Shown: positions 28,921 to 29,475 of the stretch, in pieces
Layout of the letters: every line of letters begins with the position of its first letter
Position numbering within the stretch: position 1 is the first letter of the stretch
Source of the DNA: Candidatus Finniella inopinata
GTDB taxonomy: Bacteria > Pseudomonadota > Alphaproteobacteria > Holosporales > Holosporaceae
Assembly: GCA_945888455.1 (NCBI GenBank)
Contig: CAMCZV010000003.1
Coordinates: 1-64,000, forward strand
Length of the DNA stretch: 64,000 nt
Reading direction: 5' to 3'
The notes under the pieces: model-generated
Told to the model about the DNA's origin: nothing
Databases searched by the model: none
What the model saw: the letters and a program-made list of their open reading frames with translations, nothing else
Program-made: the position numbers and the translations under genes

Positions 28921-29475
28921 ATGCCTTATTTTAATCTTCTTTCCAATAAAAAATCTGTTCTGATCTTTTTTGTATATCTTTTTTCCTGTTCTCAGACGAA
29001 AGCGGCAAACTATCCCATAGGAGCTCCCTATGCAGTTACAACAATAAATAGACCAACCAATCTAAGGGGACAAAGAGGACCAATGGGACCAGCCGGTGCA
29101 CAAGGCGCAACGGGACCGCAGGGAATACAGGGAATACAGGGAATACCAGGAGAAACAGGCGCAACGGGAGCGCAGGGAATACCAGGAGAAACAGGCGCAA
29201 CAGGCGCAACAGGCGCGCAGGGACCAGCAGGTCCAGCAGGATCGTCAGGATCAAGCAACACAATTACAGGTAACAGCAATTTTGTTATTAGTGGAAACAA
29301 CAATACTGTAACCATTCAGTCAAAAAGCCAGAATCAATCAAATCGAAAAAGCAATAATTCTGGTGGTGCATGCTATGGTGGCTGTGGTGGTGGCGGTGGC
29401 TGGGGTGGTGGCGGACGAAACAGATGGGGTTCATCATTCAATATTTGGTCTCCAAACACTTCAAGCATCTGGTAA
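28921..29475 (+). CDS. Secreted collagen-like Gly-X-Y repeat protein
   Basis: 184 residues. A hydrophobic signal-like N terminus (about 12-28) precedes a short spacer, then 21 uninterrupted Gly-X-Y triplets (about residues 50-112: [23 protein letters not shown]) forming a collagen-like triple-helix segment. The C-terminal part is Ser/Asn-rich with [13 protein letters not shown], then a glycine-rich stretch with two Cys ([12 protein letters not shown]) and Trp residues. Preceded by about 100 bases of very AT-rich DNA and no clear Shine-Dalgarno. Likely surface-exposed or secreted; bacterial collagen-like proteins often serve in adhesion. Confidence 0.75.

Follow-up and report, generated by a model that had tools for sequence, protein, structure and literature searches.

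Symbionts of freshwater protists are known mostly from assembled genomes, and little has been learned about the factors that bring them into contact with their hosts. A preliminary description of the window, by which we mean the whole 64,000-nucleotide stretch analyzed here, singled out one candidate for such a factor, a reading frame with a run of collagen-like Gly-X-Y (GXY) triplets, and assigned the DNA to an alphaproteobacterial symbiont. Is this frame a gene, does its product leave the cell, and could it act toward the host?

The genome is reduced (0.81 Mb; 810,702 bases) and encodes an ATP/ADP translocase (PF03219), a protein typical of intracellular energy parasites, which each of the ten genomes of the order carries and which all 14 control genomes lack. 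Because of this small size and the translocase, we consider the bacterium to be a probable intracellular energy parasite, which agrees with the symbiotic source proposed from the window. It probably lives inside freshwater protists; the isolate names of its relatives suggest water samples.

The gene and its collagen-like repeat

The frame and the elements around it are listed in Table 1. Residues 50–112 of the product are exactly 21 perfect GXY triplets, 63 residues without interruption, so that the count given in the preliminary description was accurate. The longest run in 20,000 shuffles of the protein was seven triplets, and no other ORF of at least 80 amino acids in the window had a run longer than four. 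The Pfam Collagen profile (PF01391) matched residues 50–108 with 36.6 bits, above the curated cut-off of 27.2, which by score makes the protein a member of the family. In a profile search of the 810,702-base genome this was the sole Collagen match. At the DNA level, the gene contains a 45-bp unit in 2.1 copies. The antisense ORFs 29028–29315 and 29036–29263 were set aside as mirror products of the GXY repeat. Elsewhere in the window, positions 49428–49956 carry direct repeats of 140–160 bp, 96–97% alike, with TCATTCTCGCGTAGGCGGGAATC-type units, and positions 1–152 carry a 21-bp unit in 7.2 copies (98% alike) that is cut by the window start and lies partly inside ORF 16–318.

Table 1. Features of the collagen-like gene, its flanks, and the translocase gene (positions in the window)
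Feature	Position	Strand	Basis	Remarks
rplI (ribosomal protein bL9), upstream neighbor	28260..28721	+		96% identical in sister species
Terminator-like hairpin after rplI, then T-rich	28727..28746	+	Scan	Chance expectation in the region ~1.3; weak alone
Promoter-like block TAAACA-16-TAAAAT	28867..28894	+		Ends 27 bases before ATG; core kept in sister species
Collagen-like protein gene	28921..29475	+	ATG start, TAA stop	184 codons/aa
Signal-peptide-like segment	28921..29004	+	Hydropathy, TKA site; core and Cys23 common to sister species	Likely cut after TKA (residue 28)
21 Gly-X-Y triplets	29068..29256	+	Pfam Collagen match and triplet count	Residues 50–112
Strand segment, 21 residues	29257..29319	+	Sequence; motif common to sister species	Glycines 8 residues apart; GN-N-T motif
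Gly/Trp-rich tail	29362..29472	+	W..S.(I/V)W end and residue-rich run common to sister species	CxxxC not common to sister species
era GTPase, convergent downstream neighbor	29774..30628	-		99% identical in sister species
ATP/ADP translocase (PF03219)	34971–36437	+	Profile match	

Orthology and divergence

The preliminary description had proposed looking for the frame in related strains and counting its triplets there. In the congener G002 (Holosporales bacterium isolate RE-23may17-753, CANHKV010000010.1), hereafter the sister species, an ortholog is found in the same position between rplI and era. The encoded protein is built in the same order: a signal-like segment with LFSC is followed by 17 triplets, the GN-N-T strand motif, a stretch rich in Gly and Trp, and the end ..W..S..VW. 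Since the sister species has the frame in this position, with the same layout and the same promoter-like block, the gene is real. As had been anticipated, the copy number of the triplets varies between species (21 vs. 17), and the repeat glycines are all kept, with 17 of 17 triplets intact in the sister species. A second, weak match in the sister genome (C4; E 4e-4, two stops) was not counted as a paralog. The third congener, G001 (L018, VGCF01000031.1), was left out, as a contig break next to era cuts off this position and the assembly also lacks rplI. The search for homologues in Holosporales was successful in the sister species and gave no Collagen match in any of the seven genomes from other genera of the order. 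Because it was not found in these genera, the collagen-like protein is, judging from profile searches, no general need of the order's lifestyle.

The window protein and its ortholog are about 37–42% identical (39% in the best segment), compared with 80–99% amino acid identity in typical ortholog pairs on the shared contig, bL9 and Era included (Table 1). This is the lowest identity among the ortholog pairs compared in the region. The whole-gene dN (Nei–Gojobori) was 0.62 and exceeded that of every other pair that aligned reliably (bL9, 0.020; Era, 0.007), with the reservation that both dN and dS of the whole collagen-like gene rest on an alignment that is uncertain outside the N terminus, and that three ortholog pairs aligned over 5–8 codons only were left out of the dN/dS comparison. 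In the first 29 codons, which are alignable, dS was 0.61 and dN 0.26; this dS falls among the values of the neighboring genes and therefore fits vertical descent. The two sequences, from which selection by the host and weak constraint are not separable, fit a history of vertical descent with fast amino acid change and repeat turnover. Strong divergence of this gene within an otherwise well-conserved stretch, as estimated from the species pair, is what the comparison adds to the first reading.

The second most divergent pair involves a short acidic ORF with a hydrophobic start at 20048–20434 (minus strand), with 44% identity to the sister species; its product is possibly another fast-evolving exported protein. 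The 341-aa protein encoded at 24225–25250 (plus strand) has a signal-like start and the look of an outer-membrane barrel; it is 73% identical in the sister species, less than most of its neighbors, and no match to it was found in Pfam or NCBIfam.

Flanking regions and transcription

Separate regulation had been proposed from an AT-rich upstream region lacking a Shine–Dalgarno sequence. The 199 bp upstream of the gene have 28% GC, compared with 46% window-wide, and by eye the ATG is not preceded by a Shine–Dalgarno sequence in either species; rplI, by contrast, has AGGAG. The 28-bp core of the promoter-like block, AAACATTTTTTGNTAGNATTTTAAAATA, has been conserved in the sister species, and the genome contains it once, no other copy being found even at 3 mismatches; therefore, it is no mark of a shared regulon. 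The hairpin and promoter scans, taken alone, are near chance level. Together, the predicted hairpin after rplI and the conservation of the promoter-like block support transcription of the collagen-like gene separately from rplI, and it is as separate transcription that the earlier proposal is upheld.

N terminus and predicted export

The signal-like N terminus of the preliminary description was recovered, with KK, an 11-residue hydrophobic core and a predicted TKA/AN cleavage site in this order. The mean Kyte–Doolittle value of the core is 2.66, the fifth highest of the 61 window ORFs. The core and Cys23, the latter within LFSC, are conserved in the sister-species protein. In the AlphaFold model, residues 10–23 form a helix, and other parts are uninformative. 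The genome encodes signal peptidase I and lipoprotein signal peptidase, and YajC is encoded within the window. There are also three secretin-domain proteins of the pilus/type II type, the best NCBIfam matches of which are pilus secretins, all under the cut-offs of those families, and one T2SS/T4P-type ATPase. At L063 8418–12148 (minus strand), two secretin-domain lipoproteins that carry TPR repeats are encoded side by side; they score far under the known secretin family cut-offs. In the collagen-like protein itself, no known anchor motif was found.

C-terminal segments

The strand segment that follows the triplets may be a small beta prism or an element that forms the trimer; the octad spacing of its glycines resembles the strand repeats of beta-prism trimers. 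The tail had been described as rich in Gly, Cys, and Trp. It is indeed Gly/Trp-rich with a conserved Trp end, but the Cys pair, present here as one CxxxC, is missing in the sister species. The AlphaFold model has a mean pLDDT of 42.6, and the fold of the tail is not interpretable from the monomer. When the tail alone was compared with the ten genomes of the order, there was no convincing match beyond its own gene, and even the sister tail was missed; it was also shared by none of the best 18 alphaproteobacterial collagen proteins that were read. Sequence matches in the PDB were only collagens and BclA, via the repeat, and kinesin fusions, via a short tract of low complexity.

Probable role and alternative explanations

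In our opinion, the gene encodes an exported collagen-like surface protein, present in single copy in an intracellular energy-parasitic alphaproteobacterium and probably serving as an adhesin or coat; we put the probability of this at about 0.6. The protein would leave the cytosol via Sec and be cut after TKA, and three chains would coil around each other as a short, 63-residue collagen rod. The trimer would be formed or capped by the strand segment (GN-N-T) together with the Gly/Trp tail, which would also provide its outward-facing end. At the cell surface the protein would serve as adhesin or coat in contact with the protist host, and such contact would drive the fast change of the gene. The rate of change relative to the neighbors is suggestive of a surface protein in contact with the host. 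This provides a concrete candidate for host contact, a single, predicted-exported, fast-diverging protein whose frame, promoter-like block and repeat glycines are kept. By analogy, one could go further and regard the strand segment with the tail as an undescribed small module that forms trimers and retains the protein at the surface, and the gene as a host-driven, rapidly changing recognition factor comparable to Pcl7 of Pasteuria, but we consider this rather improbable.

The manner of export could differ from the one outlined above. If the protein were a lipoprotein, cleavage would occur before Cys23 and the protein would be anchored in the outer membrane, its collagen rod serving as a stalk. 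The identity of LFSC in the two species, the fit of the classic lipobox pattern to the sister-species sequence, and the lipoprotein signal peptidase encoded in the genome are consistent with that. However, with Tyr at -4 the window protein does not fit this pattern, and its Phe at -2 is uncommon; the boxes of the secretin lipoproteins in this genome, which have Gly at -1, are closer to the standard. Moreover, a type I site, TKA/A, lies five residues further on. We treat a lipid anchor as a tentative possibility that deserves to be kept in mind.

The fast change, in turn, could be neutral repeat turnover, not driven by the host, in a poorly constrained and dispensable protein under weak selection. 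Repeat DNA and Gly-rich tails are prone to slippage, the whole-gene dN/dS is ~0.5 (on an unreliable alignment), and other genera are without a collagen match. Against this, the two species have both retained all glycines of the repeat, as well as the signal segment, the promoter-like block, and the tail with its terminal Trp, in a small genome that lost much else. We consider a dispensable protein of this sort the less likely reading. Origin from a phage or prophage, as the remnant of a tail fibre with collagen repeats, is hardly credible. Tail fibres were the best PHROG matches, but these matches span mainly the GXY stretch; the neighbors rplI and era are not phage-like; and a tblastn search against 50,697 phage records yielded no match, as did one against plasmid records. 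Two matches in IMG/VR sit in long, differently built, unrelated collagen-repeat fibres, and the signal-like N terminus of the protein also speaks against such an origin. As neither fibre domains outside the repeat nor a phage neighborhood was found, the protein was not classed with phage tail fibres.

Comparison with known collagen-like systems

Returning to an exported surface protein, its kind is already well known in many bacteria. Among 385 sampled alphaproteobacterial genomes, 80 had collagen repeats (55 over the cut-off) in many builds; since the repeats are common in this class, the gene adds to an already known kind. A full-text search of open-licence papers for "collagen-like" together with "Holosporales" found no paper.

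Similar to streptococcal Scl1 and Scl2, the protein has a GXY stretch without hydroxyproline dependence and a variable triplet number. Scl proteins have an LPXTG cell-wall anchor and an N-terminal V domain (PMC8968730); the protein described here has neither, and it scored ~33 bits against the Scl1/Scl2 models NF038330 and NF038329, mainly through the repeat, with cut-offs of 400 and 325, respectively, so it was not placed with them. The collagen-repeat proteins of Cardinium (CAHE_0706 and the cEina3 homologue), whose function is unknown (PMC12560110), are similar by description in that the repeats occur in an intracellular symbiont, although Cardinium belongs to Bacteroidota.

Lcl of Legionella (Lpg2644) has a comparable layout, with an N-terminal signal (here a signal-like segment), GXY repeats variable in number in the middle, and a non-collagen C-terminal part, and it also comes from a bacterium that grows in protists. 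It is an adhesin whose binding is affected by the triplet number (PMC6460258, PMC11162425), and its folded C-terminal domain forms trimers and binds glycosaminoglycans (PMC11162425). The Lcl model NF046116 was the best NCBIfam match, with 46.6 bits against a cut-off of 500, over residues 42–119 only, that is, mainly the repeat; with the Lcl C-terminal domain unmatched, the protein was not assigned to this family. Lcl is also longer, and the Gly/Trp-rich tail found here is unrelated to it by sequence. Pasteuria ramosa Pcl7, likened here by description, not sequence, is a collagen-like protein of a host-bound bacterium and provides host-specific attachment via its C-terminus (PMC10987987). P. 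ramosa shows a radiation of collagen-like protein genes (PMC13233619). Pasteuria, by contrast, is a spore former of Bacillota with many copies, whereas here there is one copy. By analogy with these systems, the mode of action may be like that of Lcl or Pcl7.
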